Source: Branchiostoma floridae
Lineage: Eukaryota > Chordata > Leptocardii > Amphioxiformes > Branchiostomatidae
DNA: 64,000 nt
Direction: 5' to 3'
NCBI RefSeq assembly: GCF_000003815.2
Contig: NC_049990.1
Coordinates: forward strand, 18,400,879 to 18,464,878
Shown here: one piece after another, positions 24,593 through 57,339 of the stretch
Numbering within the stretch: the stretch's first letter is position 1
Layout of the letters: every line of letters starts with the position of its first letter
Notes under the pieces: generated by a model
What the model saw: only the letters and a program-made list of their open reading frames with translations
What the model was told of the DNA's origin: nothing
Databases searched by the model: none
Translations under genes and position numbers: made by a program

Positions 24593-24692
24593 NNNNNNNN
24601 NNNNNNNNNNNNNNNNNNNNNNNNNNNNNNNNNNNNNNNNNNNNNNNNNNNNNNNNNNNNNNNNNNNNNNNNNNNNNNNNNNNNNNNNNNNN
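24593..24692. other. assembly gap of 100 N
   Basis: Exactly 100 N characters, the conventional placeholder for a gap of unknown size. It lies between the MBNL downstream region and the MED4 3' end, so distances across it are unreliable. Confidence 0.99.
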
Positions 24693-28000: not shown

Positions 28001-31000
28001 TTAGTCTTCCCAGGATGCCGCAGCGCATCTCGATGTCCTGAGGGTAGGGTCGTCTGGGGTCGCCCGGCGCCCAGTTGACGGGAGCGGCTACGGAGTGGCT
28101 GGCGCTGATGTGGCGAGCGTAGCGGATCAGCTCCTCGGAGGAGATCGCTCCTGCTCCGCCTGGAGAACAAGAGGTTTAACTGTCAATCATGGTTCACCAC
28201 ATCACTTGAGACACTTTCAGACCCAATCATCTCAAAGCTCTTAATTGGATTGGGTAGTGCATATAGCCTTCCCTTGATGAGTAAGAACAGTCTCCAACAT
28301 AAAACATTGTCACAAATATTAAAAAAACATCTGTATTGCAAAAGCATTCTGGTAAAATAAAAGGTAACACAAAATTTAACACATGAAAGACTTATAAGAC
28401 TACCATGTACATCTCTTTAGTCCAGTATTGATCTCTTCTCTCTCTCTCTCTCTCTCTCTTCTTAATAAGCTACTTTTACATTTTGAAGATGCAGCAATTA
28501 TGTACAATGTGTAAAACATTAAGTGCTGCAACATTTGGAAAGTTACAGGTCCATTGAAAGCTGAAATCTGTTAGACTGGTAGTACAATACATTCCAAATT
28601 GCAAGGATGAATATAGCTGTCATTGTTAGAATAAACTGGACTTACTTTCATTTGCCTTGTTGACAGACTTGAGTTTTTCCTTGGCCTGGTACAGGGCCTG
28701 TGCCTGTGGACGACATAACAAAGAATAAGACACACAAAAACTGACTTGTTTACTAATATAACTAAAATGGCAATGAAAAGAAACAAAAGTACTTCTATAC
28801 ATGACCCTGCTTTTTTCTTTCTCCCAGAATTAGCTCACTAAAGAGCTAATCTTGAACTGGTCCCAAAAGAGAAGAAAGACACTGTGTGCTAGCTCTTTCC
28901 CCTCTGACAACAATACAGTAATGAACAGTGGGCCACGGCTTAATGTCCAGTCCTAAGTACTGCGATCCTTTTCAGAAGTGTTTATTTAGTGCAGTGGATT
29001 CAAACTTCCAACTTTCTTGATCCAGAGGCAGGCTTGCTAACCACTAGCAGTAGACTACGTATGCTATCTATTTATAGGCCAGAAAGTAGGAAAGGCAAGA
29101 ACACCGTTGCATTGTCAGTCCCACTGAGTTTACGTACCTCCTATAGTGTCCGTACCATGCACCTGTAGCGTCCGTAGCCTTGAAGTTTAGGTACCTTCTA
29201 TAGTGTCCATACCACCTGTAGTGTCCTTACCCCCATAGTGTCCTTCCACCCCCCCCCGTAGTGTACATACCCCCTGTTGTGTCAGTACCCCCTGTTCTGT
29301 CTCTTTCTGACATTAATTTTCATAATACATTATGATTCCCTGGTAGGATATGATACTTTTGGTCATGTGTAAAGATACTGTTATCTCTGAAGAGAGAGAA
29401 GACCACCCACCAGTATGTGTTCAGCTTCCTTCAGCTGTTTCTGTAGCTGCCTGATGTCCTGGTCTCTCTTCTCAGCCTGTGTCTGCAGCTCCATCATCTC
29501 CTTGTGTCTTTCACCTTGTTCACGGGCTGGAGAAACAAAAACAAAAGAAAAACTTCTCTATAAATGTCTTGCAATAAACATTGAAGAGGTAATTTCTATC
29601 TTATCTACAAAATGACCGTCACTGTGACATCTTTTTTAAAAGAACATCAAGACAAAAAAAGTATACTTGTGATATCTGGAAGTTTGGAAGCTTCTACAAC
29701 TAATCCAGAGGTAAAACTTTTCACATGCGTATGATTCTCTCACCAAAGAAACAACATAGTTTTTCACTATCCACTCAGTATATCAAACTCTTCACACCTG
29801 TTTTCAGTAACTCTTGTAAAGCTTCATCTTTCTCTATCAGCAGCTCCAGCATCTGTGGAGAATGAGACAACAGTTAATGGAGAGGCAAGCAACAGAGTCA
29901 TAGAACAGGGCTTTGTAACATTCATGCTGAACGTTCTTCTATTACTAATAGTATTAGAATAGCTAAACTTGTGGGCTGCTATGTACATAAATGTCAGGCT
30001 GGTACCTTGGGATACATAATACACCTTGTTGTATTCTATGTATTTTATATGAATAAATGGACGAACATCATCATCATTCTGTATGAATACACAAAGGAAT
30101 CAACAAGGCTATCTGTTAACTGTATTTGTGATCTTCTTAGTTAGAGATGAAATGAACTTGTTCATGTGTCATATTTCCTACCTGTTGTTCCTCCCCACTG
30201 TCACCCCCACCACTGCCTCTCTGTTGCTTGGATGCTGCTAGAAGTTCAATCAGCTCCCTGGAACAATACAAACCAATGCATTTTCTTCTTACTGCTGAAT
30301 ACTAACATATAACTTCACTCCCAGTCCAAGTCACCACAACACAAAATTTGATACTAAAAGGCTATCATCCCAATCAAGATTATCAAAGTAGATGTACATT
30401 CATGTTACACAGAAACATCATCGATGAAGAGTTTTATTAAGTACATTTGTTGTAGAATCATACAATCATGTATGTCCATTCTAATTCTCTATTGGAACAG
30501 TCTTTGATATGTATCCAAATTCGGGTTCATTCATTTCATTCATCCATGGGTATTTCCCATGTACATGTCCTTAAAGGGGCATTCCACTCCACACAGGAGT
30601 GTTATTTTCCGATAGATATAAATTTCAGGAAGTGATAACTGCATACTACTTCACATTATACGATAAAGTTCCCAGTTGCTCCACATGCCACAAAAGTATT
30701 CAATGTTCTACTAAACTCCCCAAGTACCCTCTAATTGAATTAATCCTATGGCTGAATACAATGCAAAACTTTTAGGTAAGGTTACAAAACTAATTTCAGG
30801 TTCGCTAAGGGACCGTACGGCGTTTAGTGAGGGGGGAGGGCCGGTCGCCAGAGGGTCGGGTCAAGAAATTTTTGCATGGCCCTCCCCCCAGGTAAATTTT
30901 TTTTTGCTAGGCCCTCCCCCCAAGACAAAATATTTTTGCTTGGCCCTCCCCCCTCCTATCAACTTTGAAAAAAAATATTCAAGACGCCAATAAAACACTG

Positions 31001-34000
31001 CGCTCCCGCATTTGGAAACGTGCTTTGCGTCATACTTTTTCATGATAATTTTTCATCGAGAAGCAGATCTCTCACCCCTAGTAAAAAAAGGAAAACAGAA
31101 TTATGGCTCAAAATATCTGCTTAATAGAGGGATAAATATCTGCTTCATAGAGGCATAAATATTTGCTTTATAGAAGCTATTTCATTGTTTTGATATTAAA
31201 ACAACACCTAAAAAGCATTTGTACCTGGATTTCTAGTAGATTTGCGCCACGAAGCCGCGCGCGCCCCGCTCCCTAAATTTACGTATTGCAAGCTCGCGGG
31301 CATGAGCGGCTTGACGGAAACTATTTTCAATTTACATATATTTTGGACTTTTTCTTGGTTCTGTGGTGGTAATAACTTACGGTAAATCGGGGGGAAAAAA
31401 TGAAAACCAAAACGACAGCACGATTCGATTTCCAAAACTGTAGTGGGGAGGGGGGCGCCGACGCGTGACGCTGATTTTCCCACGGCGGGGTAAGACCGGT
31501 CGCCTCTCTCTAGCCGCCGGCGGGCGTGAGACCGCAGACTTGCAGGAGATCTTTTAGAAATGCCACGCTTTTTTTGCCACGATTTCCTGCATTGCTTTTT
31601 TATGGGAAAATTTGCTGGTTAGATGACATTTCTATGAAGAAAAAAAATACGAGGGTTTCAAGTTTTTGAGAACGACGTTCCGAACACCATGTTCGGCGCC
31701 AAAGAATCGCAAGGTAGGTCCGGGAGAATTTTGAAATCTTGACCCTCTTAAAAGCCATTTCCTTCAGTTTGAGGAGATATTTTGCTGACAAAGAAAGCTA
31801 ACTTTAATAGCATTTCAATTTAGAAATACAAAATTAAATCCCCCCCAAACACATTATCATGATGTCGGTCATCAAAGGCGCGAGGCCGGTCACGTCAAAA
31901 GGGATCCAGGGAAATTTGCAAATCTTTACCCTCGAGCTCTGAAACGCCATTTCTTACATTTTGAGGGCAATAAGACAGGGGTAAATTTTGCTGGCAGACT
32001 AATCTAGAGTTTAATAACATTTCTGTACGTGAAGAAGTTTTTCGAGGGCGTCATGCATAAGCCCCGCCCCCTCCCTTTCGCATTTTCACTGTATCCCGAG
32101 CGCCAACCTCGGGCGATCCCTTGCAGAGGTCCAAAAAAATTTTGAAATCTTGACCCTCTGAAACGCCGTTTCTTGGATTTTAAGGGACATATTTTGCTGG
32201 CAGACCAAGCTATTTTTTTTTTGCTTGGCCCTCCCCCCAAGTAAAAAAAAATTTGCTAGGCCCTCCCCCTGGCAAAATATTTTTTTGCTTGGCCCTCCCC
32301 CCCCCTGGCGACCGGCCCTCCCCCCTCGCTAAATGCCGTACGGTCCCTAAGAAATCTCGTCTTGCTCTTGTATTCTTTGCTATCTTATGAGCAATTTGCC
32401 TTCTCGGTTTGCTTAGCGTACCTCATTTATTCCGAAAATATGTAACGTAAGGTTACCAGTTTACGGTCGATTTGTTAACAACGCAGTTTTACGGAAATCG
32501 CGCAGGCAGAAATGAAAAACTCTCATTTTGGAAGATATCTTAGTCGGTCTGCCTCAACTTCTGTGTGGTATAATATTTCTTCTGAGTTGGATTTATCGCC
32601 GTGCGAGCTGCTTCAATAAACAAGCCTGCAGCCAAAAATTCTTTCAGGGTGACCAATTTACGGTCAGTTGGGTGTTTCTCCCTGTGGTTATTTTTCTAAA
32701 GGTCATGTAATTGATCATTTCCCATAAAAAGTTCCCCAAGTAGTTCACTGAGATAACACGGTGGATGATTGTTTACATCGACGCCATGCCGTGCACTTTG
32801 CATCGCCGCTATTTAAAACGTACCGGTCGGTCATCTTTGCCCCAACAGAACGCCACTCCTAGCACCATACTGTTCCACAACTTGCCCAATGGTACTCATG
32901 ACGTCGACGACGCATTTATATGTTTTTTATCAAGAGTATAGATAGTTATTGGCCTTGAAACACGTTCAGTATACGTTGGCTTCCTCATGCCGTGCCCTCC
33001 CCACATGAATTTGGCTAAAACAGCGCCCCTTAGCGATTTTGGCCTGCCCTCCAATGCACAAGCTATGAACTGCATAGTCACGTGGTACAACATGGCGTTC
33101 GAAAACTACCGGCTCGGCGACGACAGTCATTTGTTTTCGTGTTAGTTTTTAAGACTTCTTTTGGATAACATAAATAAAATCACCATGAATTCTTGAGATA
33201 AGAACTGCAGGTTTGGTTTCAGACGATTTTGCAATTGATATAGAGTTTGTAGGATTTAGAAAGAGGGGACGAAGTTAGCGGTTGAGAATTACGATCAAAG
33301 CGGGCCATCTATAACAGTGTTCTACGATCATAAATCGTCAATTTAAATTGTTGGCAGGCTTTTCAAATGTTTAGTCGGCTGCTTTGCTTGATGCAAACAT
33401 ATATCATAAATAAGATACATGCACATAGATCCTATAGACGTACTTCTTGCCTACTGAAGAGAATTTTCTTTTTCACAATTCACCTCGAAGTCTGCACCGC
33501 CCATTGAAGTGACCGTAAACTGGTCCTGCACGTAAACTGGTAACCTTACGTTACGATAAACAAAGTGTCTATGCGTATGGGGAATCCATGGGTAGGGTCT
33601 GCATGGGTTTAGTGAGTGTCATTATTGTTTTATAAAACACACATCACGTAATTCATCCCAAGGTGAATTCCACAAAATTCGGCTGATTATGTGTTCATTG
33701 ACACATTATCTATTGGAAGACAATACTACCTTCTGGAGTGGAATGCCCCTTTAAACATATACTTTGACATATACTTTTTACGTTGTCTCACCTCATTTGG
33801 GCTAATAGCCTTCAAACAATGATACATGTACTTTAGTACAGTAAACAGAGAAGAGTTAGTGAGCCCATAATAAAGGGTAAACTTTGATTTGATACTATAG
33901 TACCGCTCAACAGTAACACTAACAGTTCAAAGTACAGTACTGCACCAATACAAACAGGCACATGATCTGCTCGAAATTGCCAATCAGGAAAGTCCCAGTG

Positions 34001-37000
34001 CTTTCTGAGAAGGCAGTACGGCACATATACAGCAAAGTCTCCGGACAACAAGACAGGATTTGCCGTTTGAATTATCCCGTTGTTAATTGCAGCTAAAAGA
34101 GGCAGAAAAGGCATTTAGAAGTAAAAAGACTTTTACTGTCATTCTGTTTGTCCTGTTTGTTTCCTGCATACCATGGGTGGACCTTCAACATGGGTATTCC
34201 CAGGCTTCAACCAAGCAGGTACATGTAAGTATCATACTAATGGATATGTCACTTCTTCTGCAACAAATAATTAAAACTTGCAACTGGGAAGACCTGCTTC
34301 TGCTATTTTACTTATAACTATTACCCATTAGGACTTAAGGGTGAATAGTCAAATACAAGTATGTGTACAATTGTGTAGTGAACAGGGCTCAAATTAACCA
34401 CTTGCGCACCCCTGCCGCACAAGTAGTTTTCTCTGTGCGCAAGTTGTTCAGAAAGTCAGGTTGCGCCGCGTGCAACTAGATTTTTTGGGTAAACAAAACG
34501 ATCCTTAAGTTACAGGCCCTTTAGTAAAAAATATCAGAAAATCTACGCCCTGTTTTTGGGATGTATGCCTTCGGTAAGCCCTAATTTTCCGCCAGAAACT
34601 TCACTCAAAGTTCAAAATTTGCCGATTTCGGCCTCCATGGAGCCGCCATTTTAATTCTCGCGCAATCTCGCACTAACTCACATCTTGCGAATGGCGAGAG
34701 TAATACTCCATTGGCCATTTCGGCGCGACGTAGCGCACCTGGGCGCTGCTATTGGTAGAATATCTGATGTCCTAACGCTGTGTTCGCGAGGAAAATCATG
34801 TGGCAAAGCGTGAAACTTTGACAATGTTTACGAAAACTCATCGACATCGAAAGTACATGTATAGGCTTATTTTGAAGCTTTTTTTTTGCTTGTTTGGGAC
34901 AATACTGTTGGTGGAATGCGGGAAAAACAACAGCTAGTGTGGCGATGACTATACTAGGGAGGGGCGCACGGTCGGCACTGTTCAACGGAGGTCGCGATTT
35001 TTTCAGGGTTCATTGTTGCAGTCTTTATTTTCAAAAGATCGATAAATGGATGTGGTTTATTGAGAAAAGTGCGCTTAATTTGCCCTGCATTTTTTTTTTT
35101 TTTGCTATATTTCTTCAACTGACATGAACTGTTTTTACAGATAATGGATAAGTAGCTAATTCGGAGAAAGTATCAACTTGGAAGTGGCGCATCCCTGGAA
35201 CTCAACCACAATGGCGCAAGTTGGTTTTTGACTCCGACTCTCTGAGTGGTAATGAAGATTGTCCATTTGCCATGATAGGGAAGCTACAAAAGTTACTCCT
35301 ACATGGCAACAGCATTGATGCTATAGATGCTCAAAGCTTCTGTGGTCTGTCCAATTTGACGAAACTAGATCTCAGTCATAACAATATCAGCTATATAAGA
35401 AACAATTCTTTTCCTGACCTTGAGTCACTTGAAAACCTGAACATTGCTAACAACTTCATAGATGACATAGAAGAAGATGCATTTCACTATTTATCTCACT
35501 TAAGAGAGCTACATCTTCAAAACAACAGTCTGAGCTTCCTTCATAATGACACATTCTATCCTTGTACTAATTTGGAATCTTTGAACATCTCTTTCAACAA
35601 TCTGACAAGGATAATTATCAAACCTTTATTCCATTACCTTTATCACTTTAAGAGCCTTGACTTAAGTCATAACAAATTAGACCTTGATCATCACAAACTA
35701 AAGATTGCCTGTGATGACCTGATCATGTTCAAAGGCCTACAACATCTAGAATGGCTGGATATGTCATTCACTGGGGATATTTGGAGCCTTGCTAACTGCA
35801 GTCAAACGCTGGAGAACATAACCAACCTTGTAACGCTGAATATATCTAACTGTCGCATTAGCAACATCCCTCCCGAGGCATTCAAAAATCAGAAAAACCT
35901 CCAGTATTTGGATGTCCATGAGAATAAAATATCCACTTTGCCAACAAATATTTTTCAAGAACAGAAAAACCTCCAGTATTTGGATCTAAATCAGAATAAA
36001 ATATCCACGTTGCCAACAAATATTTTTCAAGAACAAAAATACCTCCAATACCTGGACCTGAGCTTTAATGGTCTACGTAGTTTACCTGGGAGTATCTTTA
36101 TTACTTGCAACTCCACAAATCTATCAATCAAACTTAAAGGAAATCGTATTGGGTCTCTCCCAGAAGGGATGTTTTCTCTCTTACACACTGCTGTTGAACT
36201 AGATTTGTGTGACAATGACTTCCACCACATTGATGCCTCTACTTTAACAGTCATACAGAATGTTTCTATCATAAATTTGTCAGGCAACCCTTTCAAATGT
36301 GACTGTGAGCTGGCACACTTTGTAAATTGGGCCAAAAGCCATGAAACCCAAGTAGTCGGATGGAATAACAATTTTACTGATGGGTTTAATGTTACAAATA
36401 ATGATTACTATAGATGCAATGGAAAAAGTTTGGAGAATTTTGATGAATATTGCCACAGCAGTACTGCTGAATATCTTGTGCCAAGTCTTGTAGTAATAGT
36501 TGTAATTGTTGCCTTTGTTGTTGGATATCTGTTGAAGAAAACTGTTAAAAGGCATAGACAAGGGTATCAGAACATTGTCGGGTCTGATCAAGAACCCTTG
36601 CCAATCACAAAGCATTACAAATATGATCTGTACGTAATACACAGTAGCGAAGATCTTGAATGGGTACAGATGTTGACTGCAAAACTTGAAGTGGAAGGTC
36701 ACTACAAAATCTCTTATCCTGACAAAGACTTTGTCCTGGGACATACTATTTTCAAAAACATTGACAACTTCCTTGAACAGAGCCGGACTATCCTGGGTAT
36801 CATCTCAACAAATGCCCTGAACAGTCCTTGGTGTTGCTATGAACTGGAAAGAGCCAGAACGCTGGAAATAGAACAGAGAGGAGATCATAAGTTGATCCCG
36901 ATATTGTTGGAAGACAGGGAATTGCTATTGAAACACATGGAAACAAAAGAATACAGTTATGCAATAGTTCACCTCATTCAAAACAAAACAAACCTAGAGT

Positions 37001-40000
37001 GGTCTGAGGATGGTAGGCTAGAACCAGAATATTGGAAAAGACTGAAAAAAGACATAGGAAAGCCTGTGGTACTGGTGGAAGGACAAGCTTGAGTGGCCAT
37101 TAAATACCAGAAACTAAAAACAGTTGAATGCAGAAATGGTGTGATTTTCTGCCACAACAATGTACAACTTGGCAGTGGCATTTTTAGTTAGTTAAAGTCC
37201 TAAAATGCTTTCCAATAAGGTTTGTAATCAGTAAGGATTTTGATCTTTCTTTCACTACTTGTTGTAAAAATGCTCTGAAACTTTGAATACCATTTTTTAT
37301 AAATAACAATTATACAAATAAAAAAATTAATGTGTACTGAAAATTCAGACTTCAGAGCCATGTGTATTGTCGTTGTACAAATGTACATTTACATGTAATA
37401 TACATCCTTATCCTAGTCCATGTAAAACATGTATACACGGACCTGTTATAATGTTGTACCCACTAACATTGGTGTACAATAAACTTAATGTTGTTAAATT
37501 GATAAACACATACACTAGTACACCAGTACTGGATTAGTCATCTTTTGCTTGGATGAGTGTTGTACAAAATAAATCCTCCTATGTTTATTGTACCTCATGT
37601 GCTTGTAGCAGTGAATCTTCCAATAGTGTGAGTGAGTCTACGCAATGTAATTCACCACATGATCTTGATGAACAATGATGGTGATGATATGCATGATACT
37701 TCTGTATTTTATGTGTTATCTAAGACTGATATCCACTGTGTTGGAAGGGGCTACAAGTCCAAGATCAAATGCTTTTTTGTGTGCAAAACATACTGGTCAT
37801 AATATGCATGTTTGTGGATCCAACTGTACATACACTGGTCAAAGGCCCATATAAACTGTAAATGCAGAAACTTTCGCGGTGGATTAATGTTTGCGGTTTT
37901 CGCGGCGGCCGCTTTACCGCGAATTTAAAACCATCGCGAACATTTTTCCATAACAGTTAGAGACTACAGTGTATGGTGCTACTGCGAAATTAAAACCACC
38001 GAGAAAAGTCCATTTTCCCGCTACTGCAAAATTAAATCTCCGCGAACTTAAATGGATCCGATCTACAGTATTACTTATCTGGACTTAGTCACCACATCTA
38101 TCTGCAAGCATGTCTAACCCCACCTGATGAGGAAGAACAGATAGTAAACTGGATATGCCCAGTTGGATCCATGAAGAGCTAAGTTTGCAGACCCTATACT
38201 GGTTGACTGTTCATTGTTTTGCAGGAACCATGCATGTGCACCAATGGTCAAATGTGGCTAAAAATACAAAAATGTACACCACATAAACCTCAATTTAACA
38301 GTAACACCTAGTATCTTCATGTACCACCTACAAATCAACAACACAGCTTGTCCAGGATCAAAGATATTTTTCTTTAAATGCTGCTGCAGTACCAACTTCA
38401 ACAACCAAGGGGTCCAACATGTACCTACACCGCGTCACAATACACCCACCTATCCACCAACAATTAACCACTGCAATCCTTCCAGCAGTTCTTGAGATAC
38501 ATTTATATCACCATACACAGTCCAGAGCCAAAATAGGGCCTCCCAACACAATAATAGTACCTCCTTCTTCATAGAGTTAATAATGAACTTCGAGATACCT
38601 TATTCAAACAGGCGCATGACTAATCTTAAAATAGCCAAACTGGTAAGTCCCTGCTATGCTTTGTCTCGAAACAACCTGCTGCAACACAATAGGATTCACG
38701 GTTTGAATTACAGAGGAAAAAAAGGCAGTAAAAATGACTTCCCCTGTTGTTTTATTTTTCCTGCTTGTTCTCTGCATACCTGTGAACCTTCATCAACATG
38801 GGTCTTCCCAGGTTCCAAGCGCACTGGTAAGTGTCACACTTACGGAGACGTTTGTTCTTACTGCTCATTATTTGCATACATGGAAGGACCTGCTTCTGCA
38901 AGTTTTCTTCCAGATTTTATTAATACCAATCAGGACTTTATTAATGAATGTGCAAGAACAAGTTATGTGTACTCAAAGTTGCCACAAAGTTTTTGCATGT
39001 TAGAGTAATGGCACGATCCAGATAGGGCAAGTTCGGGAAGACAAAGGCTTGCTTGATCAACACTTTTACATGCACTTTGTACTTGCCCCGGGTAACCGGA
39101 CCAATGGACCTGTCTAACTTACTCTAACCTTGACTGTCTTTTCTTCAGTTCCCTACTTCAGACCGATGTGTGGTCAAAACATTTGCTGAACAAACCGTGG
39201 TCAACTGCAGCGGGCTAGGTCTGACAACCATACCACAGGACATCCCACCAAATGCAACAGTATTGGACTTGTGCTACAACTGCATTCCTGTCCTGCATAA
39301 CAACAGCCTGGCAACCTTACTGAACCTGACGCACCTGAACATTTCACACAGCTGCGTTAACGACATCCAGATTGGAGCATTCCAAAATGTCTCAAACCTC
39401 AAAGTACTGAACCTGGAACACAACAACTTAACCGTGCTACAGAAGTTCTCGTTTTCTAAGCTGTACAACCTTGAGGAACTGCTTCTGTCCCACAACAATC
39501 TGACTAAGATCGACCCAGCATCTTTCCACAACTTGACCAATCTTAAGTCTCTAGATCTCAGTCACAACAACATCACTTACCTCCCAAACAATTCCTTTCC
39601 TGGCCTGACATTGCTTGAAAGATTGAACGTAGCCGACAACTTCATAAATGACATTGAGGAACATGCATTTTATTCCTTGTCTCGCTTAAAGGACCTACAT
39701 CTTCAAAATAACAGTCTGAGCTCTCTTCACACCTACACATTGTACCCTTGTACTGAGCTAAAATCTTTAAACATGTCTTTTAACAATCTGACAAAGACAA
39801 TTAGCAAGCCTCTATTCTATTATCCATACCACCTTAACAGACTAGACCTAAGCCATAACCACCTAGACATTGCCTGTACTCACCTGACCATGTTCCAAGA
39901 GCTACAACAGCTAGAATGGCTGGACATGTCATATACTGGGCATATCTGGGGATCTGACAACTGTAGTCAAATCCTGCAGAATCTAACCAATCTTGTAACT

Positions 40001-43000
40001 CTGAAGCTATCTTACTGTGGCATTAAAAACATCCCTTCTGACGCATTCAAAAATCAGAAAAAACTCCAGCACTTGGATCTGAATCACAATTTTATACTCA
40101 CTTTGCCAACAAACATTTTTCGAGAACAGAAATCCCTCCAGTACTTAGACCTCAGCTATAATGATCTAGATACTTTGCCCAGTGACATCTTCAGCTCTTG
40201 TAGCTCGACAAATCTCCATGTAAATCTAAAGCGTAATCACCTTCCATCCCTCCCAGCTGTGCTATTTTCCACCTTGTATCCTGCACAAGAGCTGGACTTG
40301 TCTGAAAATGACTTTTTCCAGATTGACTCATCCACTCTAACTGCCATACAGAATGTTTCTATAATAATTTTGTCAAACAACCCCTTTCACTGTAGTTGTG
40401 AGCTGGTAGACTTTGTACAATGGGCCAACAACCATGAGGCGCAAGTTGCTGGATGGAACGAAACTAACCAATATGTCACGGATGACTATACTTGTAGAAA
40501 TGAAGACTACAAAGGAAAAAGTTTGAAGGATTACAGTGTATATTGCCACAGCAAAGCTTCAAGTTCTTGGAAGCTACTAATTGAAGTCATTGTACCAAGT
40601 CTTGCAGGTCTTGCAGCACTTGTAGTAACTGTTGTACTTCTGTTCTACATAGTTAAAAGGCGTAACGCCGGTCCAAGATACGAGCCAATTATTGGATATC
40701 AAGATCTAGAACAGCAAGACTACCATTACGATCTATTCGTTATCCATAGTAAAGAAGATACTCAATGGGTAGGGATGCTTGCTGCCAGATTGGAAGGGGA
40801 AGGCCAGTATACCATGTCTTATATTGAGCGGGACGTTCTTGGAGGTTTGGAAGAGATTGAAAACTATATCAGACACAGCCGGATTATCTTAGGGATCATC
40901 ACAATCAATTCCTTGTACAACGCTGATGACAGTGGTCTATGTGTTCGCGGGCTGCAGATAGCCAGACAATTGGAAATTGAACATGGGGCTCGCCACCAGT
41001 TGAAACTGATCATGTTAGAGGATATGGACTCAATGAGGAAAAACTTGGCCAGATCTAGAGTGGACCCAAGTCGTGTATTCAGCATCATTCGAGGTAACGA
41101 ATACGTAAGATGGCCTGAGGATGGCAGGGAAGAACCACAATTTTGGGACAAACTGAAAAAGATGTTAGGCAATCCTGTGGTATGAACTACATTTGGATGA
41201 GAATGCAGTATTAGCATTTGCATTAAGCATGTTTAGCTGTTTCAAACACTGTCTGACATGAATAAGAGCATTAGTTTTTTCCTATGAAATTGAAAATATT
41301 GTTGGGATTACTAGTATTTGTATGCCTACAAATAAAGTTGGTTTTAGTGACATCTTGCATAAGTCTATAATTCATTGTGTCAAAAGGAGCTCAGAGTCAG
41401 AGATTAAACATTATGTTGTACAAGTTAGTACAACCACCCTGAGGTTGAGGTACAACCGGGTCTTAAAATATCCGTCGCCCAATGCAGCGGGTCTGTTCAC
41501 ACTAAGACAAAAACTTGTTATATGCTAGAGACGGATGACTTTGGCATATGTCAATTAGTCCTTGTCGTACAACCAGACATTTTCCTCATGTGAACTGGCC
41601 CATACATGGGCAAACTTGCCTCAGTCATAGGCCCAAATTATACTGTACTTTCTCCATATCAGCTACTTATCCATTACTAGTATCTTTTCTTCCAGTTACA
41701 TGTAACTACTTATGTTTTATCTTATCAAGAAATAAATACCACAAAGCTTATGCATGCAAGTGGTGGGGAAAAGTGGTGTTCCAACTGCAAAATTACAGGA
41801 TGTTCACTGTGCTACCTGAATTTGAAATTAAGTTGTACCAAGCAAAATGTGGTTGATTTTGCATGTGGGTATTTTGAAGTTAGATTTAGCAATATTCTAT
41901 AATTGCTAAATCTAACTTACCGTGACCACATCACCAACACAGAAGTCAGGAACACTATCAACAAGCTATGGGAACAGACCACCTAGAGGACCTTCTTAGT
42001 ATTGTCATAAAAAGGAAACTAAGGCCCACTTTACATTACGTTTTTCGCATTAGCGGGACTGGCGTTAGCGGGACTGCGTTAACGGGAGCCCCGTGTAAAG
42101 AGAGTTCCCGTTAACGTAGTCCCGCTAACGCCAAATTTTCTCCCGTCCACTCCGAAGCGTACGGCCGTAGGCTCAGCGGGAGTCCCCGTCAACGCCAAAC
42201 TGCGTATAAAGAGAACACGTCGGGCTCGCGTTAGCGGGAGTCAGGGTTTAGACGTTTAGCATAAAGCGCGCGCTTATTAGCATATGGCGCGAAAATGGTA
42301 GGTACAGATTTGCAAAACATTGGAGGAAAATTGCCAGCAGCGATCATGTTCATAACGCTGGGTAAGAATACAGTGATAAGAAAACAGTCTTCCGATAGTT
42401 ACTTTTTTATATACTAGTAGAATGAATGTCAACCCAAAAATCAACCCGAACTACGCAGAAACAATAGTTTTCACGGCCTGCCTTTTCCGTAATGGCCACC
42501 TACGCAGGCTCTTACGTCAATCGGGTCTGCAGTCAACCTTCAAAGCAGGCGGGATGTCAGCGAAAAATAGTCTCATTCTCACATTTTTGGACGACCTATT
42601 TTTGCACAATTTTCGTGGAAGACCTTTAAAAAAATATACAAGTTCGATTCCGAATAATTTCTCCTGCAATACATCGTTACGTTGTACCGAAACCAGAAGC
42701 CGCTATCTCTGCAAATTTTGTATAAAGTAATCCCATTACGCGTCTCCGATTGGCCGTTGCTATGACAGTGGTGGCCGTTGCTATGACATTGGTGGGGAAA
42801 TTCCCGCTACATGAACTGCTGGCAGCTTGAGTTTTTACGTACGAGGTAGTTATTATACCTGCAGGAATTATGCGTATATCACGGTTATTTCAGTACGTAG
42901 CCATAATTTAGCAGGTCATCACTGGAAGAAAGGGATCTTCTATCAAACAGTTCGCTTTGAAAGGGTTTTTAAGTGCTTTTTTATCGAAAATTTTGTGGTC

Positions 43001-46000
43001 GAAGTTACCGGAAGTGTCAGCGAAACAACAACGTAGGCAGGGACTTGTATTTCTCATGCAAGTCACGTATTTGAATTGTCAATCACTTGGTAGCGGTACG
43101 CAAACAAAAAATTAACAGTTGCTCAATATAACAACGTGCAGCTAAAAAGAACTGCGATCTTTACGGGTAGACTTTCACCAAGATTTTACATTCCACCGCG
43201 CGCCGCGGGTGTCCTGTCAGATTTCCGGGCGGTGTGTCTAAAGAGGTGCCGATAGCGGCGTCCCGATAACGGGGAATTTACCGCTAACGCGAAAAGCGTA
43301 ATGTAAAGTGGGCCTAAGGTGGTACATATACGGTCACGTGACAAGAAGCAAAGGCCTCTCAAAGGTCATACTGCAAGGAACAGTTAAAGGGAAAAGAAGA
43401 TGAGGCAGACAGAGAAAGAAATGGGACGACAACATCAGGGAATGGACAGGACTGCCCCTTGCCAACACCCAAGCATTGGCACACTACAAGGAGAGATGGA
43501 GTGAGGCAGCAAAGCGCCCCCACGACCACCCCCCGTCAAGGGACCGGTAAGCGGTAATTTCGAACACTGGTAAAGTCTGTTACAGTACAAAACAAAGTTT
43601 CCCTTTTGACTTGGACAAGTTTGTAAATTCAATTATGATTCACAATAGATGAACTTTCATGAACTTTGTTGCCATAGCAGCATTTCTAGACTAAGCCGGT
43701 TTTTCAACTAATATGGTCACATGATGAGTTTCCAGTCAGGGAAATCCCGCTGGCAAAAATAACTTTTACCTTTCTTAACATAAAATTTGTACCTTTGCGT
43801 AAAGGATTTGCTTTTGTTACAAAGACGATAGCAGTAAAAATTAAAATGAATCTCCTTGTCACTCTGACTGTCTGTCTGCTTGTTTTCTGCATGCCAGTGG
43901 ACCTTCAACATGGGTATTCCCAGGTTCCAACCAATCAGGTACGTATCATACTTATGAAGATGTTTTTCTAACATATACTGTGACAGCATAGTATTTGTAC
44001 ACTTGAAAGGGCCTAATCCTGCCATTTCAGTAATGATCATTACCTATTATGACTTTAGGAGTGAATATTCAAGTACAATGAATGTATATTCACAAAAAGT
44101 CCTTCCAAGTTAATTTTATACATGTAGTTGTAGTGTAGTTGGTAATGAGTTAGTATGTTTGCATTGATACTATATAAAATCATTGTTTATCAAAAAAATT
44201 AATGCTGTTTCCTACATCTTAGCATCATTTGAGAAATCCCGATCGCAATCTATACTAGTAGAATTGCCTACTTCTACTAGTGCAGATTGCGATTGCGATC
44301 TCTCCTAGGAGAAACTCCGATCACAATTTCTCCTAGGAGAATCGGCGATTCTACTGGATCGTGATCTCTACTGTGACATGTATGTTAAACAAAAAAAGAT
44401 TAATCTTACAAACATTTTGCTTGTTTCGGCTTCAGTCAGTCATAGACTCATACGTGTAGCTGTCAAGAATAGATTAAATAAAGGCAAAAAAAGAACGTAC
44501 GAAATGAATATTATCTCAGCTTGGTGCCATTTCAAATTTAACTTTACAGATACTCTATATGAATTTAGATCATGGGACTGACGTGCATCTGTATGACTTT
44601 ATCTTCAGATTCTAATGTCTCATGGATGCACCGTCAAAAAATTTGGTGAGCAAACCGTCGTCAACTGCAGTGGGCTAGGTCTGATGACCATACCACAGGA
44701 CATCCCACCAAATGCAACAGTCTTGGACTTGAGCTACAACTGCATTCCTGTCCTGAAAAACAGCAGCCTGGCATTCTTATCGCACCTGAAGCACCTGAAC
44801 ATCTCCTACAGCTGCGTTCATGACATCCAGATTGGAGCATTCCATAACGTGTCCCACCTTAAAGTACTGAACCTGGAACACAACAGCTTAACCGTGCTAC
44901 AGAAGTTCTCGTTTTCGGCACTCCACAGCCTTGAGAAACTGCTTCTGTCCCACAACAATATAACTAACATCGACCCAGAATCTTTCCACAACTTGACCAA
45001 CCTACAGTGTCTTGACCTGAGTCATAACAAACTAGACATTGCTTGCACACATCTGAAAATGTTCCAGGACCTACAACATCTAGAATGTCTAGACATGTCA
45101 TTCACTGGAGATATTTGGGGCTCTTCTAAATCTAACTGCAGTCAAACCCTGCAGAACCTAACCAACCTTGTATCCCTCAAGCTATCATCATGCGGCATTG
45201 GCAACATCCCTGCCAATGCACTAGAAAATCAGAAAAACCTCCAGTACCTGGACCTGAGCTTTAATGATCTACATAGTTTACCCAATGACATCTTCTTTAC
45301 TTGCAACTCTACAAACCTCAATGTCAATCTAAGAGGAAATCATATAGGGTCTCTCTCAGCACAGGTATTTTCTACCTTGCATCCTGCATTGGAACTAGAT
45401 TTGTCTGGAAACGACTTTTTCCAAATTGGTTCCTCTACATTAATGGCCATACAGAATGTTTCCCTCATAAATTTGTCAGACAACCCCTTTGACTGTGACT
45501 GTGAGCTGGTAGATTTTGTACAATGGGCCAACAACCATGAAGCTCAAGTTGCTGGATGGAACAACACTACTGCTGTAATAGATCATTACAAATGTGCAAA
45601 TGAAAAGTATGAAGGAAAAAGTTTGGAGGATTACAGTGAATATTGTCCCAGCACATTTTCCTGGTCTTTAAACCATATTGCTATCATTGCATCAAGTGTT
45701 TCAGCATTCGTAATTCTAATTATTATTGTACTTATGGTAATCTACAAAAGGTATAGAAAACATGAACCGGAAAGACAAGGATATGCGCCAATCATTGGAT
45801 TTCAAGATCTACAACAGCAAGACTACCATTACCTGTACGATCTATTCATTATCCACAGTAGAGAAGATATTCGATGGGTACAGATGTGTGCTGCAAGATT
45901 GGAGAAAGGCGAGTATACTGTGTCTTATATGGAGCGGGACTTGCCTGGGGGTTGTCACAGTTTGGAAGGGATTGACCATTTTATCAATAACAGCCGGATT

Positions 46001-47307
46001 ATCCTAGGGATCATCACAATGAACTCCCTGTGCAATGGGCTATGCCGTCATGCGTTGCAGATAGCCAGACAGTTGGAAATCGAACAGGGAGCTCACCACC
46101 AGTTGAAACTGATCATGTTAGAGGATATTGACTTAATGATGAATAACTTGGCTCCAGAGGACCGAGGTCGTGTATTCAGTATCATTCGAGGTAAACCATA
46201 CATAAGGTGGCCCGAGGATGGCAGGGAAGAACGACAATTTTGGGACAGACTGGAACAGATGATAGGAAACCCTGTGGTATAAACTATGATAGGAGGCAAA
46301 TGCAGTGTATGTGCCTTTTAGCATGTTAAGCTGTTTCAAACACTGTCTAATAATATGAATAAGAGCAATTGTTTTTACCTATGAAATTGGAAATATTGTT
46401 GAGATGCCTACAAATAAAGCTGGTTTTAGTGACATCTAACACGGGTCCATATTCATTGTGTCAAAAGGAGCTCAGAGTCAGAGATTGAACGTTACGTTGT
46501 ATATCAACCCTGAGGTTGGCAATCAATGTACTCAAATTCCAGGTCAAACTCCGTATGCCAACCCAGGCAGTTCAGCACGAGCAATCCGACAACAATACCT
46601 TGTCCTCTCGGACCTCTCTCTGCTTTTCTTGAAATGGTACTAAGTAACTACGTTCGGTTTTCGGCATCATCTTCATGACCAATCAACCTACTTGTGATAT
46701 TTTTGTTACCATTCTGATTTAGAGCAATTTTTCTATATCATCTCAAAGTTAGGACATACAAAAATAGCAAACGTACCCAGAAAGTGACTTTCTTTCAGAC
46801 AATTTTCAACAAATCTTCCCAAGAGAAAGATATGGCGCCTTCCTTTTATGACCCTCTAAGGTTTCCGCGTGAAAAACAATTGACGGCGACCTCCCTGCAG
46901 ACCCTCTTGATAATTATTGTATTTTTGTAAGCTCAAATTTCAGAATAGCAGCAAATATTAACAACATTGGCTTCCCAAACGGGATGGAAAATCAAATGCA
47001 AAGCCTGGGACAGCCTTGAAACACCTACAATGTGGGCTACATTTGCATACCCGAAAAAGGAATTGAACTGTATGCTGCATGCGCGTGCTGTAAATTAAGT
47101 AGCATTTGAAGGAGTTTAAAACCCCCAAAGTTTCTGGGACACTGACACTTTCGTCCGAGCTTTTCTTAACATTTTTTGACTCTGAAATGTTCATAAGTGT
47201 GTAGAGTACAGCCTGAAGCCAACTTAAGTCCAAACATACCTTGAAATAAGCTCCAAATCATCCAAAGTCTCCACAATCCTACTTTTCGTACTCATGGCTC
47301 CCGCCAT
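25093..47307 (-). CDS. MED4: Mediator complex subunit 4
   Basis: Coding exons on the minus strand: 47240-47307, 30182-30257, 29798-29852, 29411-29526, 28646-28703, 27896-28159 and 25093-25277. All junctions are GT-AG with matching phases and total 822 nt, a 273-aa protein (human about 270). Identity is clear from [20 protein letters not shown] at the N-terminus, the coiled-coil block with [20 protein letters not shown], then YQAKEKLKS, the core [20 protein letters not shown], then [11 protein letters not shown], and the acidic/serine tail [23 protein letters not shown]4 is a Mediator middle-module subunit linking activators to RNA polymerase II in the nucleus; the coiled coil (about residues 20-120) should pair with MED9/MED7-type partners (family knowledge). 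The first intron is 16,982 nt and contains three opposite-strand TLR genes. MED4 is divergent from EIF4E2. Confidence 0.95.
25278..27895. other. MED4 last intron
   Basis: The intron between the last two coding exons shows short unsupported open frames on both strands and a dispersed-repeat fragment at about 26560-26720. No nested gene is recognised. Confidence 0.5.
27896..28159 (-). CDS. MED4: MED4 core exon
   Basis: This 264-nt exon carries the most conserved MED4 block: [20 protein letters not shown] followed by [17 protein letters not shown]. It is more GC-rich than its surroundings. It ends with a GTAAGTG donor (minus strand) after ASTAQ. Confidence 0.93.
28437..28459. repeat. TC dinucleotide microsatellite
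   Basis: An uninterrupted run of TC dinucleotides in a MED4 intron. Confidence 0.9.
29135..29300. repeat. degenerate minisatellite of about 20 bp units in a MED4 intron
   Basis: Words of the type CCTATAGTGTCCGTACC, CTGTAGTGTCCTTACCC and CCTGTTGTGTCAGTACC recur about eight times with variable spacing, enriched in C runs. No coding role is apparent. Confidence 0.7.
30809..32347. mobile_element. PIF/Harbinger-like non-autonomous element with long C-rich ends
   Basis: Terminal inverted repeats begin GGGACCGTACGGC and continue for more than 40 nt (with GGGCCGGTCGCCAG) and are mirrored at 32304-32347. Flanking TAA at 30806-30808 and 32348-32350 is a three-base TWA-type duplication typical of PIF/Harbinger. 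Subterminal copies of TTGGCCCTCCCCCC recur at both ends. No transposase frame was recognised. Confidence 0.75.
32442..33554. mobile_element. third inverted-repeat element in the same stack
   Basis: Arms of 24 nt beginning GTAACGTAAGGTTACCAG (32442) are perfectly mirrored at 33531-33554. An inner partial copy (ACCGTAAACTGG) lies just inside the right arm. The target duplication is unclear and no coding capacity was recognised. It sits within the TTAA element, to the right of the Harbinger-like one. Confidence 0.7.
33987..33996 (+). promoter_or_regulatory. NF-kB-like site upstream of TLR copy 1
   Basis: GGAAAGTCCC fits GGRRNNYYCC and lies about 130 bp before the signal-peptide exon remnant at 34126. 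It aligns with the kB-like site of copy 3 (shared context CAGTCAGG or CAATCAGG just upstream), so it belongs to the duplicated promoter. Confidence 0.4.
34126..34218 (+). pseudogene. signal-peptide exon of TLR copy 1 with lost start codon
   Basis: This 93-nt segment is homologous to the signal exons at 38734 and 43846. It encodes [20 protein letters not shown], then [10 protein letters not shown], with a GTACAT donor. The position of the initiator ATG is AAG (34126-34128), and the in-frame stop TAA at 34084-34086 excludes an upstream ATG. A phase-0 splice to the acceptor ending at 35140 meets an in-frame TAG after four codons. Confidence 0.75.
34219..35151. other. intron of TLR copy 1 with probable repeat insertion
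   Basis: The first part resembles the corresponding intron of copy 3 (AAATACAAGTATGTG versus AAGTACAATGAATGT). From about 34386 (CAGGGCTCAAATTAACC) unrelated repeat-like sequence takes over. The insertion coincides with the loss of the exon part encoding the LRR N-terminal cap, so it probably caused or accompanied that deletion. Confidence 0.45.
35152..37092 (+). CDS. Toll-like receptor copy 1, N-terminally truncated
   Basis: An uninterrupted frame (open from 35152; first ATG at 35270) encodes leucine-rich repeats, an LRR C-terminal cap with [12 protein letters not shown], one membrane segment ([19 protein letters not shown], about 419-437 counted from 35221) and a TIR domain from about residue 465 ([10 protein letters not shown]). 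The TIR has an intact [11 protein letters not shown] motif and YW at box 3; at the BB loop it reads KDFVLG instead of RDxxPG. Compared with copy 2 about 100 residues of N-terminal cap and first repeats are missing. Two nearly identical 24-residue repeats ([19 protein letters not shown] type) stand in tandem. Intact TLRs sense microbial ligands and signal through MyD88-type adaptors; without a signal peptide this copy may be a young pseudogene or use an unseen first exon. AATAAA occurs at 37317-37322 and 37478-37483. Confidence 0.78.
   Translation, partial: VANSEKVSTWKWRIPGTQPQWRKLVFDSDSLSGNEDCPFAMIGKLQKLLLHGNSIDAIDAQSFCGLSNLTKLDLSHNNISYIRNNSFPDLESLENLNIANNFIDDIEEDAFHYLSHLRELHLQNNSLSFLHNDTFYPCTNLESLNISFNNLTRIIIKPLFHYLYHFKSLDLSHNKLDLDHHKLKIACDDLIMFKGLQHLEWLDMSFTGDIWSLANCSQTLENITNLVTLNISNCRISNIPPEAFKNQKNLQYLDVHENKISTLPTNIFQEQKNLQYLDLNQNKISTLPTNIFQEQKYLQYLDLSFNGLRSLPGSIFITCNSTNLSIKLKGNRIGSLPEGMFSLLHTAVELDLCDNDFHHIDASTLTVIQNVSIINLSGNPFKCDCELAHFVNWAKSHETQVVGWNNNFTDGFNVTNNDYYRCNGKSLENFDEYCHSSTAEYLVPSLVVIVVIVAFVVGYLLKKTVKRHRQGYQNIVGSDQEPLPITKHYKYDLYVIHSSEDLEWVQMLTAKLEVEGHYKISYPDKDFVLGHTIFKNIDNFLEQSRTILGIISTNALNSPWCCYELERARTLEIEQRGDHKLIPILLEDRELLLKHMETKEYSYAIVHLIQNKTNLEWSEDGRLEPEYWKRLKKDIGKPVVLVEGQA
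35891..36034 (+). repeat. 72-bp tandem duplication coding for two LRRs in TLR copy 1
   Basis: Two adjacent 72-bp units (35891-35962 and 35963-36034) differ at few positions and each encodes one 24-residue LRR. Copy 2 has one such unit (around 40060-40140) and copy 3 none. Confidence 0.9.
37856..38068. mobile_element. dispersed MITE-like repeat with CGCGG-rich core
   Basis: The segment begins ACTGTAAATGCAGAAAC, contains repeated TTTCGCGG/CGCGAA words in both orientations, and ends GATCTACAGT. The short ACTGTA/TACAGT ends are inverted. It lies between TLR copies 1 and 2 and is non-coding. Confidence 0.5.
38734..41185 (+). CDS. Toll-like receptor copy 2 (full-length LRR-TM-TIR)
   Basis: Two exons: 38734-38826 (signal peptide [16 protein letters not shown] and spacer) and 39149-41185, joined in phase 0 to give 709 aa. 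The ectodomain starts with a cysteine cap (CVVKTF...[16 protein letters not shown]) and carries more than a dozen LRRs rich in N-glycosylation sites. A single LRRCT ([17 protein letters not shown]) follows, then a membrane helix at about 505-530 and a TIR domain at about 555-705 ([10 protein letters not shown]). One cysteine cap next to the membrane marks it as a vertebrate-like, single-cysteine-cluster TLR. TIR box 2 reads RDVLGG (proline replaced by leucine) and box 3 has FW. Ligand unknown; role is pattern recognition and TIR-adaptor signalling by family. AATAAA at 41331-41336 ends a plausible 3'UTR. Confidence 0.9.
41330..41337 (+). terminator. poly(A) signal of TLR copy 2
   Basis: AATAAA at 41331-41336 within CCTACAAATAAAGTTGG is shared with copy 3 (AATAAA 46413-46418), showing that the duplicated unit includes the 3'UTR and polyadenylation signal. 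Confidence 0.6.
41879..41916. repeat. perfect 15-bp-stem hairpin
   Basis: GTTAGATTTAGCAAT and ATTGCTAAATCTAAC face each other across 8 nt. It lies between TLR copy 2 and the LINE remnant. Confidence 0.8.
41920..43556 (+). mobile_element. LINE 3' remnant split by a MITE
   Basis: The two parts (41920-42019 and 43318-43556) read as one degenerate reverse-transcriptase C-terminus, with [13 protein letters not shown] before the insertion and [20 protein letters not shown] after it. This basic RGRQRK-W-DNI-EW segment is typical of the C-terminal end of non-LTR retrotransposon polyproteins. The copy is fragmentary and dead; family unassigned. Confidence 0.65.
42023..43314. mobile_element. PIF/Harbinger-like MITE inserted in the LINE remnant
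   Basis: The ends GGCCCACTTTACATTACG (42023) and CGTAATGTAAAGTGGGCC (43297-43314) are perfect inverted repeats, flanked by TAA (42020-42022 and 43315-43317). Subterminal GTTAGCGGGACT/CCCGTTAACG words recur at both ends. The interior open frame (42422-42730) has no recognisable transposase motif, so the element is non-autonomous. Confidence 0.85.
43739..43748 (+). promoter_or_regulatory. palindromic NF-kB site upstream of TLR copy 3
   Basis: GGGAAATCCC is a perfect match to GGGRNWYYCC and lies 98 bp before the ATG of the signal exon. The aligned positions are GGAAAGTCCC in copy 1 and the degenerate GGTAAGTCCC (38642-38651) in copy 2. Confidence 0.5.
43846..46282 (+). CDS. Toll-like receptor copy 3 (short ectodomain)
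   Basis: Exons 43846-43938 (signal peptide [17 protein letters not shown] and spacer) and 44609-46282 join in phase 0 to give 588 aa. The cap ([18 protein letters not shown]) and first repeats closely match copy 2, but about four LRRs are missing. In copy 3 a single LDLSHN joins the repeats that in copy 2 lie on either side of a roughly 97-residue block bounded by two LDLSHN motifs. The single 24-residue LRR unit present once in copy 2 is also absent. LRRCT ([17 protein letters not shown]), membrane helix near 383-410 and TIR from about 438 ([10 protein letters not shown]) follow. This copy keeps the BB-loop proline (RDLPGG) and FW at box 3. Expected to be a plasma or endosomal membrane receptor; ligand unknown. 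AATAAA at 46413-46418. Confidence 0.9.
44239..44375. repeat. mosaic of short palindromes in the intron of TLR copy 3
   Basis: GATCGCAATCT, its complement AGATTGCGAT, two copies of TCTCCTAGGAGA (self-complementary) and CTACTAGTAG or CTACTAGT words are interleaved. The block could fold into several alternative hairpins. Confidence 0.6.
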
Positions 47308-47879: not shown

Positions 47880-50800
47880 ATGAACAACAAATTCGAAGCG
47901 TAAGTATCCATTAGCTTGTCTTTTACGTAAATGCCTTGATTGGACAGGTTTTGGTGTGTATAGTGAGACGTGTCATGTGGACACTCGCCTGTCTTGGAGA
48001 AAAATATCATCAACTCAGCTCAACCAAGCCGACCTGATGTCGTCCAAATATTCAAAAGTTATTAATGAATCACCATATTTGAACTGTATGGATCACAAGC
48101 AAATAGAATATCTAGTCGTATTTCTTTTTGGATGCGTTGCTGGTCATGCAAACGTCGCGATTGCGATTTATGATTTACAAAATGTGTAGTAAAATATTAG
48201 ACTCTAGTTCCAAATCATGTTGGCTGCTAGCTGTGATGTCTCTTCTGTAAAAAAAAAAATATCACAGTACTTTCTGTCATCTTAATATTAGTGGTGTTTG
48301 ATGCAAATGAGAGATGTTTTGATTAGTAAAAGTGTGTGAGGTAAAAAAATTGTTTTCCCCAATCCTTGTAGTAAGTCCTTCCAACACTAGTAGTTTTGTG
48401 TTTGTGTCATAGCAAAAATGATCTGATCCACATGTATAAGCCTTTTCATTGTTTCAATTGCACATGCTCAGGTGAAAGGTGAAGAACTCTAACTTGTAAA
48501 CAGTCCTTGCCCAAACCATGCTTGATACACGTTCAGATGCATTTTGTTTATGTCTTAGGGGCCTTCAACCAAAGGCATTTTTTTTTCAGTTGATGGATCC
48601 TTCTTGTTCCAATTTTAACATAAACATTTGCCCACAATGCACGCACATGAACAAGGAACATGATTATCAGCAGGCTCTTCTTTTAAGTTACCTCCGACTT
48701 AAGATGGTTTGTATGTAGAGACCAGACTGACAGAACTGTTTCACTGTTATACATGATACAACATTTTCCTAACTCTGAGTCTGATGTTTCTCTGCTGCAG
48801 ATTGAAAGACGATGACAGCGGAGAAGATAAAGATGAGGACAAGGATGAGAATGGGGAGAGTAGAAGACAGCAAAGCCCCAGAGTTAGTTACACTTTGTTG
48901 AGATATTAGCATACATATATTCTGTAAATGAAATCTTTCTTGTTATTCTGAATAACCCTAGTTTTAAAATTACCTCTTGGATGAAGACTTAAAAGAAATT
49001 CACTTGGAAAAATGACTACGATCCTTTCAGTAATTTTAACTTCAGACTTGAGAGTGCTGACTTTCCTAGAGTATATATTTGCTTACGAGAAAATGTCCCA
49101 GCATGTACATGCATACTAACACAGATGTAGTCATTTGGTTTATTCTATCAATTTATTGTGGGAGTTTGTTTGTATGTACCAACTTCAATTTGCAGTGTTA
49201 AAGAAATCTACAGACAATCAAATATCAAGACAAGTAACAAGTCTTCTGAATTCTTCTTTCCAGCCAATCCAGAAGGCTGGCCCAGGAGAACACCCACTCC
49301 AGTTCAACTATTCCATATGGTTCTCAAGACGGTCTCCTGGAAAACAGCAGAACTCCACAAACTACGAACAGAATATTAAACTAGTCGGGACTTTTGCCTC
49401 AGTAAGTAGTATATGTGGGCATGTGTAGGTCACAGTAGAGATTGGAATCGCAAAACTACCGAAGTCACGGGTTCCTCTCTCAGCACTCGGTGTCTAGTGC
49501 GGAAGGGGCCTTCCGCACTAGAAGTCTAGTGCCGAAGTTACGTCCGCACTAGGTGTCCAGTGGTGAGTCAACTTCAGCACTGAAAACCCCGATTCACCAC
49601 TAGAAACCGAGTGCTGAGACTACCTTCCGCACTAGAAAACGAGTGACGACAAATATTCCGCACTAGATAACGAGTGACGACAAACATTCCGCTCTAGAAA
49701 ACGAGTGACGACAAATATTCCGCACAGGAAAACCAGTGACGACAAATATTCCGCACTTGAAACTGAGTGCTGACAGCCAGCCTCCGTTACGTTATTTACA
49801 GTTCCGGGCAGTTAAAGGTGGTACACATATATAAAAGAAGTGTAACAAAACGTTCACCTTGAGCCTGAGAAAGCTGCGTATGGGAGGAAATATCCGTGTC
49901 GGGTTTTCAAAGAACAGTACATATCAATTATCTTTCTTATTTAGACATTAATTTCTTTCGTGACCAAAGTAGAACTGTCTAAACTGTCTGTATCCACCAC
50001 GCAATGATGCATGCGAACGATTGATTGAAAGTAGTCTGCAACTCAAACACGACAAAGGGAGCTGTAACGTTAATGTATTGTATTAGCATTTTATCTTCGT
50101 GAAATTTAGAAAAAGGGAACGAAGCTGACACACTGTTGACATGAGGTCATCATAGTACATAACACTATATACATGTAGGATGTAGCGTATGATACACACA
50201 TGCTGTTTGAGTTCCGACAGAGACAAGACTAAGCCAAAATTGATTTTAAAATACTGAGTTTACAAGTGACCGTCCGAAGGTGAGTAGGCGCTGCTGCATG
50301 TCAACTATGTTTTTGAGTAACGATTTGGACGCGAGCACTGGAAACCCAGTGCTGACGGTCTTAAAATGATAGTAGCACTCGGCTTCTAGTGCCGAAGTGG
50401 TCTTAGCACTCGGCCTCTAGTGCCGAAAAGTCACCGAGCACTAGAAATCCCAGTGCGGAACCCGTGACTTAGGTAGATCGGCACTGGGTTATCCAGTGCT
50501 CAATGACCTCCGCACTGGGTAACCAGTGCTGAACGACCTTTGAACCACCCTTCCGCACTAGAAACCGAGTGCTGAGCGGAGATCAGCACTAGAAACCGAG
50601 TGCTGAGCGGAGTTCGGCACTAGAAACCGAGTGCTGGGCGGAGTTCGGCACTGGAAAACGAGTGCCGAGACAAGGTGTAGCTCTGGAATTCCAGTGCTGA
50701 CGGGTCTTCAGCACTCGAACAAAGCCGTTCCGCACTGGAATTCCTGTGCGGAAGTTTCTTCCGCACTGGGCCCCGAGTGCCGATGCCATTTTCTCCACGT

Positions 50801-56904: not shown

Positions 56905-56965
56905 AGCCATCCAACCCCAGCCCACAGGTTAACTGCTTTCAGCTGAGGTTTTCATAAATGGTCCC
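56905..56965 (-). promoter_or_regulatory. candidate SECIS element of SELENOT
   Basis: On the minus strand ATGAA (56955-56951) is followed by AACCTCAGC, then TGAAAG, a CAG-TTAAC-CTG mini-stem, TGG, GCTGGGGTT and GGAT (56912-56909). The nine-base arms pair fully (one G-U). UGAA faces GGAU, giving the U-U, G-A, A-G quartet of SECIS cores. AAA lies unpaired at the top of the helix, as in form 2 SECIS elements. The orientation matches SELENOT. Found by eye, not by a covariance search. Confidence 0.62.
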
Positions 56966-57045: not shown

Positions 57046-57339
57046 GACTCTCACTTTGGCTAAGGGTATACATTTTGTATTTCTATCTTCTTTAACCAAG
57101 CAATCGTTAACTAGCCTGGGTACCATCTGGATAGTGGTTTGCTCCAACGTTTATTATAAGCTATTTACAGCTTTAAACTGAAGTCTATCGGTAAAAAGAG
57201 GAAAAGATGTAAAGTCAAAACACATCACACCAACAACCTTATTCGTTGATTCAAACAAAAGAACTGGGCAAAGAGTTGAACAGCTGTCCGGACTTTTAAC
57301 AGCAGGATACAACAAGCTTGTCTTTGGTTCTTTGTCATC

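Follow-up and report, generated by a model that had tools for sequence, protein, structure and literature searches.

Three Toll-like receptor copies, one of them broken, lie antisense within the long first intron of MED4 in the lancelet Branchiostoma floridae

The window analysed here is a stretch of 64,000 nucleotides of Branchiostoma floridae DNA (NC_049990.1, positions 18,400,879 to 18,464,878), in which MED4 is found as a 7-exon gene on the minus strand, with a coding span from 47307 to 25093 that encodes 273 amino acids plus the stop codon. The exons, obtained by in-phase splice assembly, are located at 47307-47240, 30257-30182, 29852-29798, 29526-29411, 28703-28646, 28159-27896 and 25277-25093, and all the joins are in phase, with GT donors, AG acceptors and no internal stop. 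The assembled protein matched the Pfam Med4 profile (6e-33) and was similar from end to end to human MED4 (PDB 7emf_D, 1.3e-64). At the join of exons 1 and 2 the protein reads ...LEDLEVLSRELIEML..., and the alignment with human MED4 is gapless there. Intron 1 (30258..47239, minus strand) is 16,982 bp long, of phase 2, and is bounded by GTATGT and TTCCAG. The first-pass annotation had joined the same two exons across this interval and had called the interval intronic. Its exon coordinates were exact, and the intronic status is supported by the splice model together with the donor scores and the uniqueness of exon 1 described below.

The exon 1 donor was examined by screening the minus strand, upstream of exon 2, for ATG-initiated, phase-2 open stretches of at least 10 residues. 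This gave 645 candidates with 424 distinct donors, which were scored by comparison with the human residues that precede the junction. The donor at 47240 scored 52 and the runner-up 10; because none of the 424 donors came near the score of 47240, an alternative first exon close to exon 2 was ruled out. Exon 1 with its flanks had 1 match in the 513-Mb, 431-contig genome, and the Med4 profile also had 1 genome match, to a single exon, in a six-frame search that takes no account of introns and scored 5 candidates; MED4 thus appears as one detectable locus in this genome. The sole N-run of the window is at 24593-24692, outside intron 1, and the sequence from 24693 to 64000 is free of N. A scaffold misjoin at 30-47 kb is not indicated, since the intron contains no N-runs. 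On the MED4 sense strand there are 11 AATAAA motifs within intron 1, at which transcripts could end prematurely. No RNA gene was found in intron 1 by Rfam, the one match of the window being a SECIS element outside the intron.

That element (56897-56965, minus strand; RF00031, 37.3 bits) is found 2,920 bp downstream of the stop codon of a five-exon gene at 59885-62715 on the minus strand, which we take to belong to the selenoprotein T-like family and which has a CYSU motif at an in-frame TGA. A retroelement fragment and a minisatellite are located between the stop codon and the SECIS element. The unit of an 82-bp tandem array at 59115-59919 carries the last coding codons and the stop of this gene, and the gene end occurs 10 times on the minus strand. 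The window also contains a broken retroelement at 57280-58945 (plus strand), in which a reverse transcriptase piece (8.7e-11) is in a different frame from a zinc-knuckle ORF whose match (0.00076) stays under the Pfam cut-off, and 31-bp tandem arrays at 49598-50669, upstream of MED4.

Within intron 1 of the minus-strand MED4 gene, three Toll-like receptor (TLR)-like ORFs with leucine-rich repeats (LRRs) and a TIR domain lie on the plus strand, spanning 34126-46282. When a nested gene is defined by a coding sequence located wholly in one intron of another gene, all of copies 1-3 are nested. Copy 2 (38734..41185) consists of exon 1 at 38734-38826, which encodes the signal peptide, and exon 2 at 39149-41185, with splice sites CTG/GTAAGT and TTTTCTTCAG; it encodes 709 amino acids arranged as LRRNT, LRRs, LRRCT, transmembrane (TM) helix and TIR. 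Copy 3 (43846..46282; exon 1 43846-43938, exon 2 44609-46282) encodes 588 amino acids and is about five LRRs shorter, being without 97 and 24 LRR residues that are found in copy 2. The layout is the same in both: a short exon encoding a hydrophobic leader precedes a large exon with the LRRs, the TM helix and the TIR domain, and a cysteine-rich C-terminal cap is visible in each translation. Copies 2 and 3 therefore have the set of features by which a TLR is recognized, namely a signal peptide, a capped LRR ectodomain, one TM helix and a TIR domain, where the signal peptide and TM calls are a hydrophobic N-terminus and a TM segment given by Kyte-Doolittle alone. The best PDB match of the copy 2 ORF was Toll-like receptor 3 (E 3.8e-50), a value for the whole ORF, which many other LRR proteins also match. 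An AATAAA motif is present within 131-225 bp of the stop in each TLR copy. For copy 3 this poly(A) signal is at about 46413, and the distance from its stop to MED4 exon 1 is 957 bp. Only these two of the three copies look intact.

The TIR domains of the copies differ in how well they fit the profiles. Copy 1 passed both TIR and TIR_2 of Pfam; copy 3 passed TIR_2 only (33.2 bits, above the cut-off of 28), and copy 2 scored 22.3 bits for TIR_2, under the curated cut-off of 28. A genome-wide PF01582 search (E<=0.001) gave 85 matches, among which copy 1 was the only one of the three nested copies. At the aligned position where the other lancelet TIRs compared have RDFxPG or similar, a motif that we take to be the BB loop, the sequence is RDVLGG in copy 2, where a short deletion follows, RDLPGG in copy 3 and KDFVLG in copy 1. 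Because of this divergence, signalling by the nested-copy TIRs may be altered.

Judged from its sequence, copy 1 (34126..37092, plus strand) is a broken, 5′-truncated gene. It has a signal-peptide-like exon at 34126 and an open LRR-TM-TIR frame at 35152-37092, and no ATG was found in the leader-like exon where copies 2 and 3 start, nor upstream in that frame. An 852-bp interspersed repeat (34383..35234, plus strand) replaces the acceptor, the N-terminal cap and the first LRRs, and homology with the LRRs of copy 2 begins again only beyond 35234. The first 27 codons or so of the open frame are within the repeat, and the first Met after it is at 35272. A TIR domain and a TM segment are present, and the start ATG and the N-terminal cap are absent, so that copy 1 falls outside the definition of a TLR used above. 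The name of three TLR genes given to the cluster in the first-pass annotation thus holds for the nesting, the antisense strand and the gene family, and fails for copy 1 as a gene, since it is without a start codon and a repeat takes the place of its N-terminus. No stop interrupts the remaining 618 codons, an outcome to which a neutral model gives a chance of 0.55, 0.05 and 0.002 at 0.01, 0.05 and 0.1 changes per site, respectively. Either the break is young, then, or the remnant remains under constraint. A 72-bp tandem repeat with one LRR per unit is also found at 35881-36047, in the LRR region of copy 1. This 24-residue LRR unit is found twice in copy 1, once in copy 2 and not in copy 3.

The repeat that interrupts copy 1 has at least 48 genome matches (40 of 312 candidates scored), and its ends are the same in the fullest of 5 aligned copies, with 85-90% identity. 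A further transposon-like stretch at 30571..33754, identified by inverted arms alone, has 48-nt inverted ends and encloses inverted-repeat elements at 30805-32351 and 32442-33554, recognized likewise by their inverted arms. Between copies 2 and 3 lies a 1.3-kb inverted-repeat transposon (42019..43318) with 38-nt inverted ends. At least 39 other long copies of it were found at 95-99% identity among the best 40 of 191 candidates scored, an identity that indicates a young element. These three stretches account for at least about 31% of intron 1.

When the TIR domain of copy 2 was searched against the genome, copy 3 showed 72% identity and copy 1 46%, and the other 28 matches showed 29-35%. A tree was built from 19 TIRs, the 3 nested ones and 16 from elsewhere, and in it the nested TIRs formed one side of a branch with support of 100/99, a value from a bootstrap that had not settled and a midpoint-rooted tree, and copies 2 and 3 were sisters. 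For this tree 20 loci were fetched and one (L007) was excluded with no hit at extraction; of the 85 profile matches, a part is represented. A local expansion, as put forward in the first-pass annotation, is supported by both the tree and the genome search. The copies also share the layout of signal exon and large exon, homologous introns and homologous 3′ flanks. Because the LRR block of about 97 residues is common to copies 1 and 2 and absent from copy 3, and copies 2 and 3 are sisters, copy 3 probably lost the block. The dS values by NG86 were 0.52 for copies 2-3 and 1.03 and 1.07 for the pairs with copy 1, and pairwise dN/dS among the copies was 0.33-0.39 (NG86) or 0.45-0.56 (YN00). These values indicate that constraint acted after old duplications.

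The whole locus is most probably a passive arrangement of host and nested genes. MED4 would keep a long first intron, in which one ancestral two-exon TLR-like gene settled on the opposite strand. Since the TIRs of the copies group apart from the 16 others sampled, and copies 1 and 3 show 46-72% identity to the TIR of copy 2 versus at most 35% for the other 28 matches, this founder probably duplicated inside the intron. The simplest reading, in which the nesting would precede the duplications and these would have occurred in place, is one founder and two tandem duplications within the intron long ago. The copies would then have diverged to give the present outcome of one full-length copy, one with fewer LRRs and one broken, and transposon insertions would have added further to the length of the intron. 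Each TLR copy probably has a promoter and a poly(A) site of its own, and intron 1 would be removed from the MED4 transcript by ordinary splicing. Given the poly(A) signals of the copies and the 957 bp that separate copy 3 from exon 1, no overlap of the mature mRNAs is predicted, and no feature that would require coupling of MED4 and the TLRs was seen in the DNA; we infer that the two are not coupled.

Regulatory coupling would give the nesting a function, in that MED4 transcription through the intron would repress or time the antisense TLR copies by interference or by nuclear duplex RNA. The geometry permits this, because the strands are opposite and the whole cluster lies in a transcribed intron, and nested genes in human can interfere with their hosts (PMC3192792). 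Nevertheless, the predicted mature mRNAs do not overlap, with copy 3 ending well short of exon 1, and expression of the nested TipE genes is poorly correlated with that of the host in PMC3240667, where the expression of published host/nested pairs is often described as inversely correlated or not correlated. We therefore consider a functional coupling unlikely, and it is very unlikely that expression of the antisense cluster is set by MED4 transcription running through intron 1, whereby the innate receptor repertoire would be tied to the output of this core transcription component. The expression coupling proposed in the first-pass annotation is accordingly not supported by the predicted exons, which are without overlap. 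The same annotation had held that nesting protects the cluster from loss. This too found no support, because a deletion internal to the intron need not touch the MED4 splice sites, and both the break in copy 1 and the loss of about 97 LRR residues from copy 3 took place in situ. This damage, together with the possibility of splice-sparing deletions, makes the protection claim weak here. Loss of a nested LRR gene without its host is described for LRRTM2 in frog (PMC3933685); as a counterpoint, nested structures are said in PMC3240667 to be gained more often than lost.

It is highly improbable that all the three nested copies are decaying relics without function. This would fit the broken copy 1, the shortened copy 3 and the divergent TIR boxes of copies 2 and 3, with only copy 1 recovered by the genome-wide PF01582 search at E<=0.001. 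However, copies 2 and 3 keep the signal peptide, splice sites, LRRs, TM helix and open TIR, dN/dS is below 1, and 618 codons are open even in copy 1, for which the neutral chance is 0.05 at 0.05 changes per site. That exon 1 belongs elsewhere, or that the interval was misjoined in assembly or annotation, is barely credible: a single assembly and a repeat-rich region underlie the interval, but it lies in N-free sequence and exon 1 is unique in the genome and by far the best donor candidate.

Nesting of this kind has many precedents. The share of genes that are nested is about 6% in Drosophila, 2.1% in C. elegans and 0.5% in human (PMC3786989), and about 63% of human nested genes are on the opposite strand (PMC3192792). 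No published report of TLRs nested in MED4 was found by titles and abstract openings among the papers listed, which is weak evidence of absence. One of the closest known systems is the insect TipE cluster in the last intron of CG18675, where several related genes likewise lie in one intron of an unrelated host; according to PMC3240667 these encode sodium-channel auxiliary subunits and not immune receptors, the nest is kept across much of the insects with escapes in beetle and moth, and a terminal exon overlaps that of the host, unlike the lancelet copies. The same source gives the GMC oxidoreductases in flotillin-2 as a further single-intron cluster. LRRTM1-3 of jawed vertebrates likewise encode LRR transmembrane proteins and lie antisense to their hosts in large introns, those of alpha-catenin genes, but with one nested gene per host, no TIR domain, and pairs that arose by duplication of the whole nest (PMC3933685). 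Of 19 conserved vertebrate nests that were later lost in frog or chicken, 12 include LRR genes according to that paper. Its Table 1 lists human MED12L with P2RY12 and P2RY13, which resembles our case in having a Mediator-subunit host and nested receptors on a different strand, and differs in that the receptors are GPCRs instead of TLRs and the host is another Mediator subunit (PMC3933685). In Drosophila, 2mit, which lies antisense within an intron of timeless2, also has two exons and encodes an LRR transmembrane protein; it is a single gene with a neural role and no TIR (PMC3786989). In their domains, the nested copies resemble the lancelet-expanded amphioxus single-cysteine-cluster TLRs, which have LRRs, TM and TIR (PMC6224433). 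Their frames are shorter than many other genomic TIR frames (e.g. about 1,070-1,200 amino acids), to which their TIRs are 35% or less identical.

In lancelets, the dispensable genes, those whose presence varies between individuals, are enriched for TIR-domain genes (PMC12373286), and the MED4 locus would thus allow one to ask whether immune-gene turnover goes on inside an essential host gene without harm to it. Opposite-strand nests and nested clusters are well known, and with so many precedents no general view is changed; the MED4/TLR nest is a genuine further instance of this arrangement and a clear example of how a fast-evolving family of receptors has expanded within the intron of a conserved host.
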